A model generated the notes under the pieces. It worked only from the letters and a program-made list of their open reading frames with translations. It was not told the DNA's origin and ran no database searches. Shown piece by piece: positions 28,291 through 38,510 of a stretch of 39,952 nucleotides of DNA. Positions within the stretch are counted from its first letter, which is position 1. Every line of letters starts with the position of its first letter. Made by a program: the position numbers and the translations under genes. Source of the DNA: an uncultured Pseudomonadota bacterium (GTDB lineage Bacteria; Myxococcota_A; Bradymonadia; Bradymonadales; GCA-2716585). Location of the stretch: contig CALBXO010000838.1 in NCBI GenBank assembly GCA_937890335.1, positions 1-39,952 on the forward strand. Direction: 5' to 3'.

Positions 28291-31200
28291 TCAGGCCCTG
28301 CGTCGGGAGACCAGCAGGGCGGCGCCGAGGACCAGGAGGACCTGCCACGGCGGCGGCGGCGCGTGGGCGGGCTGGCAGGCGCAGTCGCCGGTCTCGGCGC
28401 TGCTGATGGAGGGGGTGTCGTCGACCTCCGGCATCTGCGGGTCACACGCGTCGCCCTGGCCGTCTGCGTCGAGGTCGAGCTGGTCGGGGTTGGCCACCTC
28501 GACGCAGTTGTCGGCGTCGTCGACAACCCCGTCGCCGTCGGCATCCTCACGGTCGTCCTGTGCGTCGCAAGGGTCGCCGACGCCGTCCCCGTCGAGGTCG
28601 TTCTGATCCTCGTTGGCCACCAACGGGCAGTTGTCGTCCTCGTCCGCGATGCCGTCGTCGTCGTCGTCCTCGTCACAGACGTCACCGAGGCCGTCCTCAT
28701 CCAGGTCGTCCTGACCCACGTTCATCGCCACCGGGCAGTTGTCCTCTGTGTCTGCGACCCCGTCGTTGTCGTCGTCCTCGTCGCAGACGTCACCGAGGCC
28801 GTCCTCATCCAGGTCGTCTTGACCCGCGTTCATCGCCACCGGGCAGTTGTCGTCTGCGTCCGCGACCCCGTCGTCGTCGTCGTCCTCGTCGCAGAGGTCG
28901 CCGAGGTCATCGCCGTCGGTGTCGGTCTGGTCGGCATTTTCGGTCAGTGGACAGTTGTCGTCGGCGTCGGGGACGGCGTCGCCGTCGTCGTCCGCGTCGC
29001 AAATGTCGCCGAGGCCGTCGTCGTCGGTGTCGAGCTGACCGTCGTTGACGTCGTAGGGACAGTTGTCTTCCCCGTCGAGGACCCCGTCGTCGTCGTCGTC
29101 CTCGTCGCAAGCGTCGCCGTCACCATCCGCGTCGGTGTCGGTCTGTTCGACGTTGGGTGTCCGCGGACAGTTGTCGTCGACGTCGGGGACGCCGTCGCCG
29201 TCGATCTCATCCTCGCACACGTCCCCGAGGCCGTCCGCGTCGGTGTCGAGTTGATCTTCGTTGGCGACGAGCGGGCAGTTGTCCTCGAGGTCGGGGATGT
29301 CATCGTTGTCGTCGTCGTCATCACAGGCGTCGCCAAAGTCGTCGTCGTCGCTGTTGATCTGGTCGGCGTTGGATGTCCGGGGGCAGTTGTCCTCCACGTC
29401 ACTGACGGCGTCTGCATCGTCGTCGTCGTCGCAGGCGTCGCCCAGGCCGTCCTCGTCCAGATCGAGCTGGTCTTCGTTCCCCAGCAAGGCGCAATTGTCT
29501 TCGGCGTCGGGAACGTCGTCGTTGTCATCGTCGTCATCACAGGCGTCGCCGAAGTCGTCATCGTCGGTGTTCACCTGGTCTTCGTTGTCGACCAGGGAGC
29601 AATTGTCCTCCCCGTCGCTGACCCCATCGCCATCGTCGTCGTCGTCGCAGGCATCGCCGAGACCATCCGCGTCCCTGTCGAGCTGATCGTCGTTGGCGAG
29701 CACGGGGCAGTTGTCGTCGCCATCGAGGATGTCGTCGCCATCGCGGTCGTCGTCACACAGATCGCCGATGCCATCGTTGTCGAGGTCGAGCTGCTCCACG
29801 TTTGCGACCAGGGGGCAGTTGTCCTGGTCGTCGGCGATGCCGTCGTCGTCGTCGTCGTCGTCGCAAGCGTCTCCCAGGCCGTCGCCGTCGGTGTTGGCCT
29901 GGTCCGGGTTGGCGGTCAGGGCGCAGTTGTCGTCTGCGTCGAGCACCAGGTCGTTGTCATCGTCCGGATCGCAGACATCGCCGAGGCCGTCGTCGTCGGT
30001 ATCGACCTGATCCGCGTTCGGAACGATGGGACAGTTGTCGTCGGCGTCGGGGATGCCGTCCCCGTCGCGCTCGCCTTCACAGACATCGCCGACGCCGTCC
30101 TCATCGAGGTCACCCTGGTCCTCGTTGGCGTCGAAAGGGCAGTTGTCATCGGCGTCGAGAACCCCGTCGCCGTCGTCGTCCGCGTCGCAGGCGTCACCCT
30201 GGCCGTCGGCGTCTGTGTCGGCCTGTGTGTTGTTGGCGTCCACCGGGCAATTGTCGTCGGTATCGGCGACCCCGTCCTTGTCGTCGTCGGGGTCGCAGAC
30301 ATCGCCCAGCGCATCCTCGTCGTTGTCGAGCTGGTCGGGGTTGGCGTCCGCCGGACAGTTGTCCACGTCACCGCAGAGGTCGTCCTGGTCCCCATCGTTG
30401 TCCGGGTCCTCCGGACAGGCGTCGCAGACGTTACCGAGCCCGTCGTCGTCGGTGTCGAGCTGGTCGGCATTCGCTTCCGCGGGGCAGTTGTCCACGTCGC
30501 CGCACACGCTGTCGCCATCCGCGTCGTCGTCGGGATCGTCGGGGCAGAGGTCGCAGATGTCGCCGACTCCGTCGCTGTCGGCATCGCTCTGGTCGGCGTT
30601 GGCGTCCGCGGGGCAGTTGTCCACGTCGCCGCAGGCGCCGTCCCCGTCGGAGTCGTTGTCGGCGTCGGCCGGGCAGGCGTCGCAGGCGTCGCCGAGGCCG
30701 TCCTCGTCGGCGTCTTCCTGGCCGAGGTTGGCGTCGCCGGGGCAATTGTCCACATCTCCGCAGAGACCGTCGCCATCCAAATCGTCGTCGGGATCGATGG
30801 GGCAGGCGTCGCAGAGGTCGCCCGCTCCGTCGCTGTCGCTGTCGGTCTGATCGGGACTGGGCAGCGGAAGCGTCCACGCGACGATGTCGTGGTGGTTGCC
30901 CGATCGTTTGCTCGCAGCGGTGAAGCCAATGAACGGCGCCTGGCCTGTGATCGCGGGGATGTCGATGGTGTGGGTCAGCGCGGCATCTCGAGGCTTGGGT
31001 TCGGTTGTGGAGACAAAGACTTCGAGCAGGTCTGTGCCCCCGTCGTAGTCCACCCACACGAAGAAGCCATCTGCGCCCACGCCATTGAAGTCAAAGCCTG
31101 GGTCGAGGTTGACGGCCAGGTGGTCGGTGACGTTGCCGCCTGTCAGGAGCGCCACATGGTTGCCGTTGGCATCGCCGTCGTTGGAGCTGGAGGTGTCGAA

Positions 31201-34200
31201 CTCGACGGCCACGCTGTTGGTGATGCCCTCGTACCCCAGTCCGCCCACTGCGCCACCCAACGCGCTGTCACCATCGCCATGGTTCTGGATGACGAAGGTG
31301 AGGCCGTGGGCGCCACTATTGCCCGAACCCTGGGCGATCCTGGCGTGGAAAGCCGTGGCAAAGTCGTCGTCGTCACCGAGCGCAATCGGGTCCGACAGGA
31401 AGACGCTGCCACGCCGTGTCCCGCCGCCGCTGGTGGGCGTGACGCGCAGGAAGCTGCCGTGGATCGCGTCGCCATTGGTGGTGAGCCGATCAAAGTCGGT
31501 GAAGTCGGTCACCACCAACCCCAGCCCAGAAACGCAGTTGTCACACACGTCGCCCACGCCGTCCCCGTCGATGTCGGTCTGCTCGACGTTGTCCTCGTCG
31601 GGGCAGTTGTCACAGAGGTCGCCGAGGCTGTCGTTGTCGGCGTCCGTCTGATCCTGGTTGGCAACCACCGGGCAGTTGTCGATGTCCCCGCAGATGGTGT
31701 CGCCGTCGGCATCGTCGGCGGGATCGTCGGGGCAGGCGTCGCAGACGTCGCCCGTCGTGTCGTCATCACGGTCGTCCTGGTCCGCATTGGCGTCGCCCGG
31801 ACAGTTGTCGCAGGCGTCGCCGACGCCGTCGTTGTCCCCGTCGGTCTGATCCGGATCCCCCTGCAACACGGTCCAGGCAAGCACGTCGTGGTTGTTGGCC
31901 CCGTCCTCGCGGTTGTCGTCGCTGGCGGCGGTGAAACCGACGAAGGGTGCGTTGCCCACAATCGCGGGGATGTCCAGGGTGTAGCTAAGCGAAGGGTTCG
32001 GAGGCTTCGTCTCGGCTGTGGAGACGAAGATCTCGAGCAGGTCCGCGCCCCCGTCGTAGTCCACCCACACGAAGAAGCCAGCATCGCCCCGACCGTTGAG
32101 GTCGAAGCCGGCGGCGGCCTGCGCCAGGTGGGTGAACGCGTCGCCGCGCGTCAGCAGACCGATCTGGTTTGACACGGTGTCGAACTCGATGGCGACGCTG
32201 TCGGTGATGCCTGCATATCCGAGCCCGGTCCGTCCGCCTCCGAGGGCGGCGGTCCCGTCCGGGTCGTTGTGGAGCACGAAGGTCAGGCCGTACTTTCCGC
32301 TGGTGCCACCCCCACCCGAGATCCTGGCGTGGAAGGCGGTGGCGAGGTCATCGTCTTCTCCGAGAACGACGGGAGCTTCCGCAAAGACGCTGCCGCGACG
32401 GGGGTCGAGGTTGTCGAAGGGAGAGACCCGCAGGAAGCTGCTCTGGCTGGCGTTCCCGTTGCTGCGCAGTCCGGGGAATCCGGTGAAGTCGTCGACGTGC
32501 ACTCCCTGCGTCACCGGGCAGTTGTCGCAGACATCGCCCACCCCATCGCTGTCAACGTCCACCTGGTCCGCGTTGGCGTCGTCTGCGCAGTTGTCGCAAA
32601 CGTCCCCCAGTCCGTCGTCGTCGGCGTCGCTCTGATCGGCGTTGACCGCCTGTGGGCAGTTGTCGTCGCGATCGATCGTCCCGTCTGCATCTGTGTCGTC
32701 GCAGACGTCGCCCACGCCGTCACTGTCGGTGTCTGTCTGTTCTGAGTCCCCCAGTGCAAGGCGCCACTGGAGGACGGCGTGCCGGTCGAAGTTGCCAGCG
32801 GAGGAAGCGCCGAACCCGATGAACACCTCCTCACCCACCTGCGCCGCTACGTCGATGCTGTGGCTCAGCATTGGCAGGGTTGGCCGTACGATCGTCTCGG
32901 AGACAAAGACCTGCAGGAGGTTGGTGGTGCCGTTGTAGTCGATCCACACGAAGAACGGCACGTCGTTGTTCATGTCGAAGCTGGGAGTCGCCGTCGCCAG
33001 ATGCCGGGCGACGTCGCCGTTCTGGAGCAGTCCGATGTGGTTGTCGTTGGGATCGTTCGCGTTGTTGTCGGTGGTGTCGAACTGGACCCCCACGCTGTTG
33101 ACGATGAAACGGTAGCCGGCCCCTCCGCCATCGCTCGTCAATGCGGCGGCGCCTCGGGGGTCGCTGTGAAGGATGAAGGTCATCCCGGTGCCCCGGGACA
33201 CGCCCCCCATCTGCACCTCGAAGAAGGTCGAGAACGACATCGTCTCCGTCCACGCCACCGGCTCGGTCAGCCAGGCGTTGCCCCGTAGGTTGGGGGCGTT
33301 GGGGATGAGTTGGAGCGCCGGGCCGTCCTGCGATGCGTCCCCGTTGAGCGTCAGCGCGGACACATCCGAGAAGTCTGCCAACCCGAAGGGGAGCTCGCCG
33401 GTGTCCGGGCAGCTGTCACAGACGTCGCCGAACAGGTCCCCATCGAGGTCCGCCTGATCGACGTTGACGTCGGTGGGACAGTTGTCGACCGCGTTGACCG
33501 CGCCATCGCCGTCGATGTCGTCATCACACACGTCGCCGATGCCGTCACTGTCGAGGTCGGCCTGGTCGACGTTGGCGATGAGTGGGCAGTTGTCATTGGC
33601 ATCGAGGAGCTCGTCTCCGTCGCTGTCGTCGCAGAGGTCGCCGACGCCGTCATTGTCGCCATCGGCCTGGTCCGGGTCGGCCACGGGCGGTACCGTCCAG
33701 GTCGTGACCGTGTGGCTGTTCGTATTGGTCAGGGAACGACTGTCGCAGCGATCCCGCAGACCGCCGCCGCTGGCGGCTGTAAAGCCGAGGAAGGGCCGGT
33801 TGCCGACAAGGCCGGGGAGGTCGATCGTGTGGCTGAGCAGGGGTGTCTCGGGCCGGACGTCCGCGGGCGACGCGAACACCTCCAGTAGCCGCCTACGCCC
33901 GTTGTACTCGAGCCAGACGAAGAAACCGGGGTTGCCGTTGGTGTTGAGATCGAAACCTGGACTGTCCGCGAGCGCCACGTGCTGGGAGACATCGCCGTTC
34001 GTCACAATGGCGACATGGTTGCCGTTGGGATCGCCCCCATTGGAGTTCGTGGTGTCGAACTCGATGGCCACGCTGTTGGTGACGCCTCGGTACCCGAGGC
34101 CGTCCCCTCCCGCTCCGAGAGAACCCGTGCCATCGTCGTGGCCCTGAATGACGAACGTCATCCCATGGTCCCCATCGGAGCCGTCGCGGGCGTTGATCAG

Positions 34201-36516
34201 GGCATGGAACGCCGTGGAAAAGGAGTTCTGGGCGTCCAGCGTGATGGCTGTCTCCAGGAACGCGCTGCCGACCTTCCTCTCAGCGGAGTACACGGACAGC
34301 CCCTCACACTCGTCCTCCTCGTCGAAGTTCGAGCCGACCTCGGCCTCCGGTGACACGACCAGACGCGCACCCCTCGTGGCGGCATCCCCGTTGAGCTCCA
34401 GCGCGAGGTCGCGCAGGTCGGTGACGTTCTGGCGGTCGGAGAGCAGGGTCATGGGGCAATTGTCGACCTCGTCCGCGACGCCGTCCCCATCGGCGTCGTC
34501 CTCACAGGCGTCACCGAGGTCGTCGCCGTCCAGGTCAGCCTGATCGGGGTTGTCGACCAGCGGGCAGTTGTCCTCGGCGTCAATGATCCCGTCGGCATCG
34601 CTGTGATCGCAGACGTCGCCGATGCCGTCGTCATCGATGTCGACCTGGTCATTGTTGAGGTCACCAGGACAGTTGTCACACAAGTCACCGACGCCGTCCT
34701 GGTCGCCATCCGTCTGATCCGCGTTGCCCAGCCTGGGGCAGTTGTCCTCCCCGTTGGGCACGCCGTCGTCGTCGACGTCCAGGTCGCAGGCGTCGCCGAC
34801 GCCGTCGTTGTCGAGATCAGCCTGGTCGACGTTGGTCACCAGCGGGCAGTTGTCATCGCGATCGAGAAACTCGTCGGCGTCGCTGTTGTCGCAAGCATCG
34901 CCGAGCCCGTCATGGTCGACATCTGCCTGGTCGGCGTTGGGAACGGCCGGGCAGTTGTCTCCAAAGTCGGGCACGGCGTCGGCGTCGGCGTCTTCGCAGA
35001 TGTCTCCGACACCGTCGGCGTCGGTGTCGGTCTGATCTGTATACCCAGGCAGCGTCCAGGCGAGTATGTCGTGGTTGTTGCTCTCGACCCCGATGAATTC
35101 GTCGGTGGCGGCTGTGAAGCCGACGAACGGCGCGTTGCCAACAAGGGAAGGGATGTCGATCGTGTAGCTCAGCTGCGGGGCCTGCGGTTTGTTGCCGGTG
35201 GTGGAGACAAAGACTTCCAGCAGGTCCGTGCGCCCGTCGTAGTCCACCCACACAAAGAAGCCCGCGTCGCCCATGCCGTTCAGGTCGAACCCCGGGTTCG
35301 CCTGGGCCAGGTGGGTGTCCGTGTCGCCCTGGGTCAGCAGACCCACATGGTTGGGCTGCGTGTGGAGCTCGATGGCCACGCTGTTGGTGATGCCCGAATA
35401 CCCGAGTCCCGTGCGGTTGGCGCCCAGTGCGTCGGCTCCGTTGGGATCGTCGTGCAGCACAAACGTCATCCCGTAGACGCCGAAGCTGTCACTGCCTCCC
35501 GCGATGCGGGCGTGGAAGGCCGTCGCGAAGTCGTCATCGTCACCGAGCCGGATGCGGGCCTCGGCAAAGACACTGCCGTGCTGCAGCTCGACGTCCTCGA
35601 AGGGTGAGACGCGCAAGAAGCTGCTCTGGCTGGCATCTCCGTTGGTCTTGAGCCCTGGGAATCCCGTGAAGTCGTTGATGACCGTCACGGGGGACTCCGG
35701 GCAGTTGTCGCAGACGTTGCCCAACCCGTCGTCGTCGGCGTCGGTCTGATCGGCATCCGCCACCATCATCCCCCATTGGTTGACGGCGTGCCGGTCCTGC
35801 AGATTCCCGCAGGATGCGCCAAAGCCAATGAAGACCTCCGGCCCCAGCAGTGCGGCCACGTCGATGGTGTGGCTCACCAGAGGCAAGACGGGCTGGACAT
35901 CGCTGTCGGAGACAAAGACCTGCAGCAGATCGCTGGCGCCGTCGTACTCGATCCACACGAAGAAGGGGGAGTCATCGTTCATGTCGAACGCGGGGACACC
36001 CGCCGCAAAGTGATCCACTACGTTGCCGCCGGTGAGCACGGCCACGTGGTTGTCGTTGGGATCGCCGGTGTTGTTGTCCGCGGTGTCGAACTCCACCACC
36101 ACGCTGTTGGTGATGCCCCTGTGGCCCGCCCCATTCTCGTTGGTGGCGACGGCCAACGCGCCGTCGGGGCTGCTCTGGAGGATGAAGCTCATCCCCGTGC
36201 CCTCGGAGGCGCCCCCCATCTGCGCTTCGAAGAAGGTCGAGAACGACATCGTCGCCGTCCACGCCACCGGCTGCGTCAGCCACGCGCTGCCCCGTACATG
36301 TTGTGCGTCGGGCGTCAGCTCCAGCGCGGTACCATCTTGGGAGGCGGACCCGTTGCGCGTCAGGGTCGACACGTCCGAGAAGTCGGACAGCCCAAACAGC
36401 ACGTCGCTCGAGTCGGGACAGTTGTCATCGCCATCGACGACCCCGTCGAGATCGGTGTCGTCCTGGGCCTGTGCGGATGGCGCCCCGACAAGGAGAATCG
36501 AGGATGCAAAGGCCAC
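28291..36516 (-). CDS. giant secreted six-lectin TSP3 surface protein with MYXO-CTERM-like tail
   Basis: There are about 2741 residues from GTG 36516. The signal core is AFASSILLVGAPSAQA, but its natural basic leader (IARRCLW) lies upstream in an open stretch that has no ATG/GTG/TTG and reaches back to TAG 36541-36543. Six L-type (legume-lectin-like) domains lie at about 41-252, 278-490, 697-943, 1043-1255, 1339-1550 and 1667-1885. They carry motifs such as NSVAIEFDT, NGNHVA and FFVWVDYDG. TSP3 calcium-binding repeats link them, and about 21 more form residues 1886-2690. The end has DCACQPAHAPPPP, a hydrophobic helix (WQVLLVLGAALLV) and SRRRA, a MYXO-CTERM-type signal for surface sorting. Very acidic. 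Likely a calcium-stiffened carbohydrate-binding adhesin. Confidence 0.93.
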   Translation of the reverse strand: MAFASSILLVGAPSAQAQDDTDLDGVVDGDDNCPDSSDVLFGLSDFSDVSTLTRNGSASQDGTALELTPDAQHVRGSAWLTQPVAWTATMSFSTFFEAQMGGASEGTGMSFILQSSPDGALAVATNENGAGHRGITNSVVVEFDTADNNTGDPNDNHVAVLTGGNVVDHFAAGVPAFDMNDDSPFFVWIEYDGASDLLQVFVSDSDVQPVLPLVSHTIDVAALLGPEVFIGFGASCGNLQDRHAVNQWGMMVADADQTDADDDGLGNVCDNCPESPVTVINDFTGFPGLKTNGDASQSSFLRVSPFEDVELQHGSVFAEARIRLGDDDDFATAFHARIAGGSDSFGVYGMTFVLHDDPNGADALGANRTGLGYSGITNSVAIELHTQPNHVGLLTQGDTDTHLAQANPGFDLNGMGDAGFFVWVDYDGRTDLLEVFVSTTGNKPQAPQLSYTIDIPSLVGNAPFVGFTAATDEFIGVESNNHDILAWTLPGYTDQTDTDADGVGDICEDADADAVPDFGDNCPAVPNADQADVDHDGLGDACDNSDADEFLDRDDNCPLVTNVDQADLDNDGVGDACDLDVDDDGVPNGEDNCPRLGNADQTDGDQDGVGDLCDNCPGDLNNDQVDIDDDGIGDVCDHSDADGIIDAEDNCPLVDNPDQADLDGDDLGDACEDDADGDGVADEVDNCPMTLLSDRQNVTDLRDLALELNGDAATRGARLVVSPEAEVGSNFDEEDECEGLSVYSAERKVGSAFLETAITLDAQNSFSTAFHALINARDGSDGDHGMTFVIQGHDDGTGSLGAGGDGLGYRGVTNSVAIEFDTTNSNGGDPNGNHVAIVTNGDVSQHVALADSPGFDLNTNGNPGFFVWLEYNGRRRLLEVFASPADVRPETPLLSHTIDLPGLVGNRPFLGFTAASGGGLRDRCDSRSLTNTNSHTVTTWTVPPVADPDQADGDNDGVGDLCDDSDGDELLDANDNCPLIANVDQADLDSDGIGDVCDDDIDGDGAVNAVDNCPTDVNVDQADLDGDLFGDVCDSCPDTGELPFGLADFSDVSALTLNGDASQDGPALQLIPNAPNLRGNAWLTEPVAWTETMSFSTFFEVQMGGVSRGTGMTFILHSDPRGAAALTSDGGGAGYRFIVNSVGVQFDTTDNNANDPNDNHIGLLQNGDVARHLATATPSFDMNNDVPFFVWIDYNGTTNLLQVFVSETIVRPTLPMLSHSIDVAAQVGEEVFIGFGASSAGNFDRHAVLQWRLALGDSEQTDTDSDGVGDVCDDTDADGTIDRDDNCPQAVNADQSDADDDGLGDVCDNCADDANADQVDVDSDGVGDVCDNCPVTQGVHVDDFTGFPGLRSNGNASQSSFLRVSPFDNLDPRRGSVFAEAPVVLGEDDDLATAFHARISGGGGTSGKYGLTFVLHNDPDGTAALGGGRTGLGYAGITDSVAIEFDTVSNQIGLLTRGDAFTHLAQAAAGFDLNGRGDAGFFVWVDYDGGADLLEIFVSTAETKPPNPSLSYTLDIPAIVGNAPFVGFTAASDDNREDGANNHDVLAWTVLQGDPDQTDGDNDGVGDACDNCPGDANADQDDRDDDTTGDVCDACPDDPADDADGDTICGDIDNCPVVANQDQTDADNDSLGDLCDNCPDEDNVEQTDIDGDGVGDVCDNCVSGLGLVVTDFTDFDRLTTNGDAIHGSFLRVTPTSGGGTRRGSVFLSDPIALGDDDDFATAFHARIAQGSGNSGAHGLTFVIQNHGDGDSALGGAVGGLGYEGITNSVAVEFDTSSSNDGDANGNHVALLTGGNVTDHLAVNLDPGFDFNGVGADGFFVWVDYDGGTDLLEVFVSTTEPKPRDAALTHTIDIPAITGQAPFIGFTAASKRSGNHHDIVAWTLPLPSPDQTDSDSDGAGDLCDACPIDPDDDLDGDGLCGDVDNCPGDANLGQEDADEDGLGDACDACPADADNDSDGDGACGDVDNCPADANADQSDADSDGVGDICDLCPDDPDDDADGDSVCGDVDNCPAEANADQLDTDDDGLGNVCDACPEDPDNDGDQDDLCGDVDNCPADANPDQLDNDEDALGDVCDPDDDKDGVADTDDNCPVDANNTQADTDADGQGDACDADDDGDGVLDADDNCPFDANEDQGDLDEDGVGDVCEGERDGDGIPDADDNCPIVPNADQVDTDDDGLGDVCDPDDDNDLVLDADDNCALTANPDQANTDGDGLGDACDDDDDDDGIADDQDNCPLVANVEQLDLDNDGIGDLCDDDRDGDDILDGDDNCPVLANDDQLDRDADGLGDACDDDDDGDGVSDGEDNCSLVDNEDQVNTDDDDFGDACDDDDDNDDVPDAEDNCALLGNEDQLDLDEDGLGDACDDDDDADAVSDVEDNCPRTSNADQINSDDDDFGDACDDDDDNDDIPDLEDNCPLVANEDQLDTDADGLGDVCEDEIDGDGVPDVDDNCPRTPNVEQTDTDADGDGDACDEDDDDDGVLDGEDNCPYDVNDGQLDTDDDGLGDICDADDDGDAVPDADDNCPLTENADQTDTDGDDLGDLCDEDDDDDGVADADDNCPVAMNAGQDDLDEDGLGDVCDEDDDNDGVADTEDNCPVAMNVGQDDLDEDGLGDVCDEDDDDDGIADEDDNCPLVANEDQNDLDGDGVGDPCDAQDDREDADGDGVVDDADNCVEVANPDQLDLDADGQGDACDPQMPEVDDTPSISSAETGDCACQPAHAPPPPWQVLLVLGAALLVSRRRA
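28681..28896. repeat. recent 108-bp tandem duplication within the TSP3 array
   Basis: Bases 28681-28788 and 28789-28896 are adjacent copies with only about seven differences by eye. Each encodes one 36-residue TSP3 repeat containing NCPVAMN and GQDDLDEDGLGDVCDE. The other repeats in the array are much more diverged, so this pair is probably the youngest. The period keeps the reading frame. Confidence 0.75.
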
Positions 36517-36679
36517 CCACAGGCAACGTCTGGCGATATCCTAGGAGGCCTCGTAGCATTATGGTCGTCGGGGTCTGCAGCCATTGTCCGTGCAGACGCC
36601 ATTCACGGCAATCGTCGTCGGCAATGAACCCGCCCGGGCCACCGCGCACGATAGCGCACCCGGCCACATTTGCGCGAAT

Positions 36680-36753: not shown

Positions 36754-38403
36754 TCAGCGGCGTCGCCAAATGTGCCACTGCGGGGTTGCTGCTCCCGCAG
36801 ACTGACAGCCCTTGGTCTGTACGGCGACGCGCTCGGCGCCGCCTGCGCGGTCGGAGGGCGCGACCGGTTCGTCGTCGTTCGGGTCCGGGCGCTGCGGGTC
36901 CGGGTTGGGCAGCGGGTCGCCGTCCGGGTTGGGCTCGATGATTGGCTCCGGCTCCGGCTCCGGCTCCGGCTCTGGCTCCGGCTCCGGCTCTGGCTCCGGC
37001 GCTGTCTGCAAGGCAACGGAGGCCCAGGTGTCGCCGTATTGAACCTCGAGGGTGCGCTCTTTGCGCTCCGTCGCCCAGCCATCCTTGCTCACTTCCAGCG
37101 TGTAGCTGCCCCACTCGAGCCCGTCGATGCGGTAGAATCCGCGGTCGTCGGTCGTGACGGCCGGACCGCCGACGACTTTGACCCTGGCACCGGCCACGGG
37201 TTGCTCGGTGTTCATGATGTCTCCGGCGCGGACAAAGCCGACCAGGTTGCCCGTGACGGCACCTCCGTCCTCGCCGCGCACGTAGCGCATGTACCGGTCC
37301 CAGTCCCAGTGGGGTCCGGGGTCGGTGTGGGTCTGGTTCCTGAACTCCACGTGGCCCTTGATGTGCGCCCGGTCGAGGGGCACGCCCCAGGTGTCGGCGA
37401 TGTGCCGCACCAGGCGCGCGGACGAGCGGTACATATCGTCGGTGAACCACCGCGGTTGCGAGACCCAGCCTTCGTGTTCGATGCCGATGGTGTAGCCATT
37501 CTCGGAGCCCACATGCCAGCCCATGTCCTTGTGTTGCACCATCTGGGTGATGTCGCCGTCGGAGGACCGGATGACGTAGTGGGCGGAGACGTTGGAGCTG
37601 GGGTTGCGGAACCAGGAGATCGCGCCCGCGTAGGAGCCCTGGGTGACGTGAATGGCGATGTGGGTCACGTCACTCGGGCGCCGGTTGCGCGCGCTGTAGT
37701 TGCTGGAGTGGGCCGGGTTCCAATGTGCGCTGGGGTACTCTTGCATGGCCTGGGTGCGCACCTCATGCGTGGGCAAATCCACCCGGTCGTGGCCGGCCAC
37801 CGCCATGGGGAGCCCCTCCTCCGTGTAGTCCGTCATGCCGGTGTTCAGCAGGCTGAAGACGTCGGCCGTGTAGCGCCGACCGGCCCGCTCATCGCCCGCA
37901 GCGCCGTAGACAGCCACCGCATCCTCCCAGGCCTCCAACGGGAGGTCCCCGTCGCCGGCGAGGTGGCGAAGCGCAGCGGCGGCGCCGCGGATGTTGGTCG
38001 CGCGGTCGTAGACCAGGTCGTGCTCGGCCGCGTCGGTCAGGCGCACGGCGAGCTCCATCGAGCGCCACGGCGCGCCGCGCAGGGCCATGATTCCGTAGGC
38101 GGGCGGGGCGTGGTCGTCGTCGAGCCCAGCGGTGTCGGGGAGGGGCGGTGTCTGCCAACGCGTCTCGACCCAGGCCATGGCCTTGAGCAGGTCCACGGGC
38201 ACGCCAAACTCGCTGGCGGCGAGTTCGAATTCGTGTTCGAGGGGGCTGCGCCTGGCCTGGGGAGACGGGGCGTCGTCGGAAACCGCGGGAAGCGGCGGCG
38301 ATACGTCGGCCGTGCAAGCGCACAAGAACACGCACGCCCAGACCGTCCATCGGAGCGGGGACACACCGGCGAACCGGCCATGACCAGAGTCAGAATGTCT
38401 CAT
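36754..38403 (-). CDS. lytic-transglycosylase-like plus AmpD-type amidase lipoprotein
   Basis: There are 549 residues from ATG 38403. The lipoprotein signal ends in LCAC (Cys30), which is unusual in having Cys at the -2 position. Residues about 55-190 resemble a lysozyme-like SLT domain: Glu80 in AMAWVETRW, AYGIMALRG, NIRGAAAALRHL and AVYGAAGD. Residues about 225-377 form an Amidase_2 domain with zinc ligands H252 (IAIH), H361 (KGHVEF) and D371 (HTDPGPHWDW). A carboxypeptidase-regulatory-like beta domain follows (about 386-467), then an EP-repeat linker and the tail GCQSAGAATPQWHIWRRR. It should cut both glycan and peptide parts of peptidoglycan, at or outside the outer membrane. It lies directly upstream of the giant lectin gene on the same strand. 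Confidence 0.9.
   Translation of the reverse strand: MRHSDSGHGRFAGVSPLRWTVWACVFLCACTADVSPPLPAVSDDAPSPQARRSPLEHEFELAASEFGVPVDLLKAMAWVETRWQTPPLPDTAGLDDDHAPPAYGIMALRGAPWRSMELAVRLTDAAEHDLVYDRATNIRGAAAALRHLAGDGDLPLEAWEDAVAVYGAAGDERAGRRYTADVFSLLNTGMTDYTEEGLPMAVAGHDRVDLPTHEVRTQAMQEYPSAHWNPAHSSNYSARNRRPSDVTHIAIHVTQGSYAGAISWFRNPSSNVSAHYVIRSSDGDITQMVQHKDMGWHVGSENGYTIGIEHEGWVSQPRWFTDDMYRSSARLVRHIADTWGVPLDRAHIKGHVEFRNQTHTDPGPHWDWDRYMRYVRGEDGGAVTGNLVGFVRAGDIMNTEQPVAGARVKVVGGPAVTTDDRGFYRIDGLEWGSYTLEVSKDGWATERKERTLEVQYGDTWASVALQTAPEPEPEPEPEPEPEPEPEPIIEPNPDGDPLPNPDPQRPDPNDDEPVAPSDRAGGAERVAVQTKGCQSAGAATPQWHIWRRR
36944..36998. repeat. hexanucleotide repeat coding for an EP linker
   Basis: About nine tandem copies of GGCTCC/GGCTCT (plus strand) encode Pro-Glu pairs in the amidase. 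Length changes by slippage would stay in frame and change only linker length. Such linkers often span the periplasm or wall. Confidence 0.8.
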
Positions 38404-38510
38404 CGGATGTCCCAATCGGGGCGTATCGCCGCCGTCCCGGGCCACATCACCAAGCCACGCGATGTTGAAGTATCAACCGTCGTCGACTCTAGGCAGCGGG
38501 TCGTTGCGTG

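Follow-up and report, generated by a model that had tools for sequence, protein, structure and literature searches.

Our results revealed, in the 39,952-nucleotide stretch of DNA analysed here (the window), a chain of six L-type lectin folds that appears to be kept under selection and in which the classical sugar-binding residue has been lost from every copy. The chain is encoded by a single open reading frame (28291–36516, minus strand; 2741 aa; GTG start, as read from the window), which comprises the six L-type lectin-fold domains (D1 to D6), TSP3 spacers, a C-terminal TSP3 stalk and a MYXO-CTERM tail. We propose, with moderate confidence and from sequence evidence, that the product is a myxosortase-sorted, calcium-dependent surface stalk whose degenerate lectin modules serve adhesion or recognition by a route other than the canonical monosaccharide site. 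It presents a testable case of a maintained fold without its classical ligand-binding residue, and adds multi-lectin TSP3 chains to the range of MYXO-CTERM surface proteins.

The six lectin domains, originally predicted at 30862-36396, were recovered by profile searches. Specifically, a Pfam scan of the whole protein returned six stretches for PF00139 (Lectin_legB; 489.7 bits against a cut-off of 26.3, E 2e-147) and six for PF18483 (Lectin_L-type_dom), and an HMM built on the six copies, from which the domain borders were taken, placed D1–D6 together at 30856–36399 of the window, on the minus strand like all features below. D1 (residues 40-254; 35755–36399; HMM iE 1.6e-103), assigned to class A by the domain trees, has a full metal loop and Thr for the loop-A Asp. 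D2 (277-493; 35038–35688), a class B lectin-fold domain identified by HMM, AlphaFold and Foldseek, has an eight-residue metal-loop deletion, His for the Asp of FDT, and a loop-A Tyr, and D5 (1338-1554; 31855–32505), of class B by HMM and tree, shows the same deletion and the same Tyr. The trees place D3 (695-946; 33679–34434), which has a loop-A His and a pair of Cys (C737, C924) located in two inserts, in class C. D4 (1043-1257; 32746–33390), a class A lectin domain identified by HMM, tree, AlphaFold and Foldseek, has a loop-A Thr and a Glu-to-Gln change in the metal site, and D6 (1666-1887; 30856–31521), with a loop-A His, keeps its metal loop, is B-like outside it and is not the partner of D3. 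The TSP3 spacers between the domains are, as predicted, of unequal length: 22 aa (35689–35754), 201 aa (34435–35037), 96 aa (33391–33678), 80 aa (32506–32745) and 111 aa (31522–31854). The first three have counterparts of 22, 199 and 97 aa in a paralogue on contig C655 of the same genome; every one of them aligns best with the spacer in the same position, and the second pair has 124 of 201 residues identical.

The profile of these domains matches PDB entry 7elv (E 7e-25), annotated in Foldseek as a legume lectin domain of Methanocaldococcus jannaschii, as well as many plant lectins. AlphaFold models of D2 (pLDDT 92.3) and D4 (pLDDT 95.1) both led Foldseek to legume lectins, for D2 with a best E of 5.9e-15 and a TMq of 0.82 to arcelin-5, and for D4 with an E of 1.4e-16 to pea lectin. 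As modelled, D2 and D4 have the L-type (legume) lectin fold, on the presence of which the original prediction had depended.

Beyond the lectin array lies the C-terminal TSP3 stalk of about 813 aa (28417–30855), with 51 Cys and 41% Asp+Glu; TSP_3 (PF02412) matched 28 stretches of the whole protein (615 bits against a cut-off of 25). Adjacent TSP3 units at about 28671-28854 (minus strand) are nearly identical (NCPVAMNAGQDDLDEDGLGDVCDEDDD and NCPVAMNVGQDDLDEDGLGDVCDEDDD), and the number of repeats may be distorted by the assembly of such near-identical units. The protein ends in a MYXO-CTERM sorting tail (28294–28392) with a GDCACQ signature, a hydrophobic helix and an RRRA end. Scanned alone, the tail scored 22.5 bits for TIGR03901 (cut-off 20) and 20.5 bits for TIGR03382 (cut-off 15.85), the full-length protein reaching 14.8 bits for the latter, slightly under its cut-off. 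Further, the same genome encodes the myxosortase MrtP (NF040674, 340.9 bits against 250; Mrt_core, 147.7 against 100), and MYXO-CTERM proteins of M. xanthus reach the cell surface via myxosortase-dependent sorting (PMC11980579). The predicted combination of a multi-lectin TSP3 protein with a MYXO-CTERM-like tail is therefore borne out.

At the other end of the protein, a hydrophobic stretch ending ...GAPSAQA/Q (36463–36516), aligned by eye with the signal-peptide regions of the paralogues on contigs C655 and C473, represents a signal peptide that is only probable, because the N-terminal start is uncertain. Read from the listed GTG, it is without a basic n-region. The in-frame codons upstream (36516-36541, minus strand) read DIARRCLW after a stop, and translation may in fact begin at a rare codon, or at a start affected by a base error.

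TSP3 repeats are abundant elsewhere in this genome, where a genome-wide PF02412 search gave at least 150 matches (150 of 891 candidates were scored, and all matched). Among 17 TSP3-containing open reading frames from 14 of 15 further contigs (L148-L162), about 10 end in a MYXO-CTERM-like tail, as judged by reading their ends for short, Cys-containing, hydrophobic and/or Arg-rich sequence, and the rest run off the contig or end otherwise (e.g., L154, L156 and L162). Such a tail thus appears to be common, not general, among the TSP3 proteins of this genome. Six of these proteins were scanned with Pfam; one has FG-GAP repeats, and a lectin domain was found in none.

The history of the array departs from the one first proposed, in which a three-lectin A-B-C unit was duplicated whole, with D1 matching D4, D2 matching D5 and D3 matching D6. 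A domain-level tree, named at the time as a check, agrees for the first two pairs and not for the third. D1 and D4 are 63% identical and D2 and D5 68%, the remaining window pairs lying at 39-59%. Class A, composed of D1, D4 and the first and fourth C655 domains (d1 and d4), received starred support of 100/99; within it, window D4 sits with the C655 domains (97/93, starred), and a group of D1 and D4 alone was not excluded (p 0.305 and 0.117 in two constraint tests). D2 and D5 form a clade in both trees (91/93, and 95/97, the latter starred) and have the metal-loop deletion in common. D3 and D6, however, are 51% identical, against 59% for D6 with each of D2 and D5, and the sister of D3 in both trees is C655 d3 (99/96 and 98/95, both starred), the only other domain with Cys at both of these insert positions, a pair that D6 lacks. 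D6 itself has no starred partner and, by path and identity, lies nearest to D2/D5. Silent-site distances were 0.71 for D1–D4, 0.79 for D2–D5, 0.86 for D6–D2, 0.89 for D6–D5 and 1.15 for D3–D6, the last at the between-class level and its excess over D1–D4 and D2–D5 absent in 2.6% and 3.8%, respectively, of 500 codon resamples, although between-class values of about 0.9 to 1.8 make this comparison of ages marginal.

One could still suppose that the triplet was copied whole and that D6 is a strongly altered class C domain, its Cys inserts lost or never had. The positional order of the domains would then follow, as would a TFVIQ-x-H-x-DG stretch shared by D3 and D6, and a forced grouping of D6 with D3 and C655 d3 was disfavoured without being rejected (p-AU 0.07 and 0.22). 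Yet that stretch is absent from C655 d3, D3 and D6 as forced sisters were rejected in both trees (p-AU 0.0065 and 0.043), and the proximity of D6 to D2/D5, like the silent-site distances, points the same way; we hold this history to be very unlikely. The full DPNGNHVA or DANGNHVA loop, previously read as a mark of the D3–D6 pair, has no bearing on it, because the DPNGNH loop is ancestral and is also retained by D1, D4 and most homologues. Whole-triplet duplication was hence set aside, as neither the two trees and their AU tests nor the segment identities and silent-site distances support D3–D6, leaving position-matched relatives for A and B only. On our reading, the array is best described as A-B-C-A′-B′ followed by a sixth domain that is B-like and for which a remote class C origin is possible. 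It would have grown by duplication of modules A and B, which were probably copied together, and by a separate B-type duplication, with no copying of the triplet as a unit.

Paralogous arrays place this history in a wider frame. A search of the class with the A1 profile gave 15 lectin matches in the window genome (G000; 8.6 Mb in 972 contigs), spread over four contigs, with six in the window, four on C655 (the last truncated where the contig ends), three on C94 (the first likewise truncated) and two on C473. Since the C655 domains (locus L031) run A-B-C-A, with spacers that match those of the window, the A-B-C-A layout is common to two paralogous genes. The available part of C655 d4, 52 residues long, is 96% identical to d1 (173/186 bases match), which may reflect recent copying or homogenization, or an assembly repeat boundary. 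The idea that C473, C655 and C94 form a single paralogous gene was considered and rejected, there being no exact end overlap of C473 or C655 with C94; C473 and C94 may be parts of one gene.

The search for further multi-lectin TSP3 proteins that the original prediction had called for thus yielded such chains on three other contigs of G000, and in one other genome of the same family (G002). Of 379 genomes of the phylum, 27 have a lectin match at 1e-8, and G000 and G002 alone showed strong multi-lectin TSP3 chains; a third genome (G003) has a TSP3 open reading frame with one strong lectin match plus weaker ones. A scan of the genome collection with alignment A2 gave 57 named loci, and the same scan with D6 alone gave no matches. 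Among the 57 loci, four strong lectins in one open reading frame occurred, besides the G002 contig (L093), only in Rhodopirellula maiorica. These genome sets are samples, in which absence does not amount to proof.

The ligand-binding features of the six domains bear most directly on function. Loop-A Asp and loop-C Asn are parts of the canonical monosaccharide site of L-type lectins (PMC5008829). In D1 to D6, the loop-A residue preceding the invariant Gly reads T, Y, H, T, Y, H, and the Asp is also missing from the domains of the paralogues on C94 and C473, whereas homologues outside these genomes have Asp at this position in 57/67 cases and Glu in 7/67 (D/E in 64/67). At this position, 6/6 domains depart from sugar-binding L-type lectins. 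The Ca/Mn site (E, D, N, D, H) is complete in D1 and has E replaced by Q in D4; D3 and D6 keep E, D, D and H, with Ser at the +4 Asn position, and eight residues of the Ca/Mn loop are missing from D2, D5 and C655 d2. In G002, the pattern is reversed, with the loop-A Asp kept in 4/4 domains and the metal loop lost in 3/4. Values of dN/dS of about 0.30 (D2–D5) and 0.38 (D1–D4), rough figures as dS is near its plateau, are low, which argues against simple decay of the domains and for a lectin fold maintained under purifying selection. Loss of the loop-A Asp is not proof of lost sugar binding, because lectins can use non-canonical residues; nevertheless, sugar binding through the canonical site appears unlikely on sequence grounds, and altered binding sites are probable, since the Asp is lost in every domain and the metal loop in two. 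The earlier suggestion of polysaccharide recognition is accordingly weakened as far as ordinary lectin chemistry is meant (Asp gone 6/6, metal loop gone 2/6).

Several explanations can be weighed against these observations. The L-type fold, the low dN/dS and the metal-site residues mostly kept in D1, D3, D4 and D6 would all suit a conventional glycan-binding adhesin, in which these four domains bind prey or matrix sugars with His or Thr for Asp and the B domains serve as spacers; set against a loop-A position that is acidic in nearly all other homologues, this appears rather unlikely. That all six domains have lost sugar-site residues would fit a structural role only, with the lectin folds as inert beads in a calcium-dependent coat or scaffold and the TSP3 stalk as the functional part, and the genome does hold many other TSP3 proteins, with no lectin in the six scanned. 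However, classes A, B and C and their matching spacers are conserved in order between two paralogues and dN/dS is low, which suggests domain-specific roles, and we consider inert beads unlikely. The near identity of C655 d1 and d4 over 52 residues hints at copying or homogenization between positions, and, on that basis, the proteins could form a recombining family of surface chains whose modules, devoid of the sugar-binding residue, are exchangeable recognition units on a calcium stalk (for example, in cell-cell or kin recognition), copied and homogenized between positions, an idea we rate as quite improbable.

The explanation we prefer, a sorted surface stalk with altered lectin modules, would operate as follows. 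The protein would be exported by the Sec route, its MYXO-CTERM tag processed by MrtP, and the product presumably anchored on the cell surface, where the long TSP3 stalk, probably stiffened by calcium, would hold out the six lectin-fold domains on their shorter TSP3 spacers. The modules probably bind oligosaccharide, nucleotide or protein surfaces via altered sites, and would act through multivalent adhesion or recognition. Surface display, adhesion and self or prey recognition are plausible roles.

The protein is a new architecture variant assembled from known parts. A literature search found no paper on bacterial proteins combining L-type lectin and TSP3 domains, so that the original remark that no described family of this layout is known holds within that search; it found none on MtsC either. 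With the legume/L-type lectin family (PF00139 and PF18483; 7elv, DB58 and pea lectin), it shares fold, core residues and, in D1, D3, D4 and D6, most Ca/Mn-site residues, but it differs in lacking the loop-A Asp throughout, in the metal-loop deletion of D2 and D5, and in its six stalked copies. L-type folds with altered sugar sites also occur in the arcelins and in DORN1, a plant L-type lectin receptor: in arcelin-1, a truncated loop C appears to abolish monosaccharide binding, and DORN1 is an ATP-binding protein in which His99, beside loop A, is a predicted ligand contact (PMC5008829). These are plant proteins without TSP3 or MYXO-CTERM, and we do not suggest that the altered sites are related by descent. 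If the modules of the window protein do bind something else, they would mirror, in a bacterium, the plant L-type lectin receptors whose ligands are not sugars.

Among MYXO-CTERM proteins, the TraA type (PMC11980579, PMC6372800) resembles the window protein in its Cys signature, hydrophobic helix, Arg end and genomic myxosortase, but combines a PA14-like variable domain with Cys-rich repeats where the window protein has L-type lectins and TSP3 spacers. The cell-cell cohesion MYXO-CTERM protein MtsC (NCBIfam NF047638) shares TSP3 repeats and the MYXO-CTERM tail, and its model gave a whole-protein score of 980 bits against a cut-off of 350, summed over 19 stretches. The best of these covers positions 88-266 of the 428 in the model and corresponds to the TSP3 stalk of the window protein, the lectin arrays being without evidence of belonging to MtsC. 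The protein of Rhodopirellula maiorica SM1 (L098) has four L-type lectin domains in a 1947-aa open reading frame, but no TSP3 motif was found in it, and it keeps the loop-A Asp and has Glu at the usual metal-site His.

An operon with the neighbouring upstream gene was also considered and rejected, as the orthologues of that gene in G002 and in a further genome (G004) are without an adjoining lectin gene. The neighbour, at 36754-38445 on the minus strand, encodes an N-acetylmuramoyl-L-alanine amidase (Amidase_2) with a Pro/Glu-repeat region.
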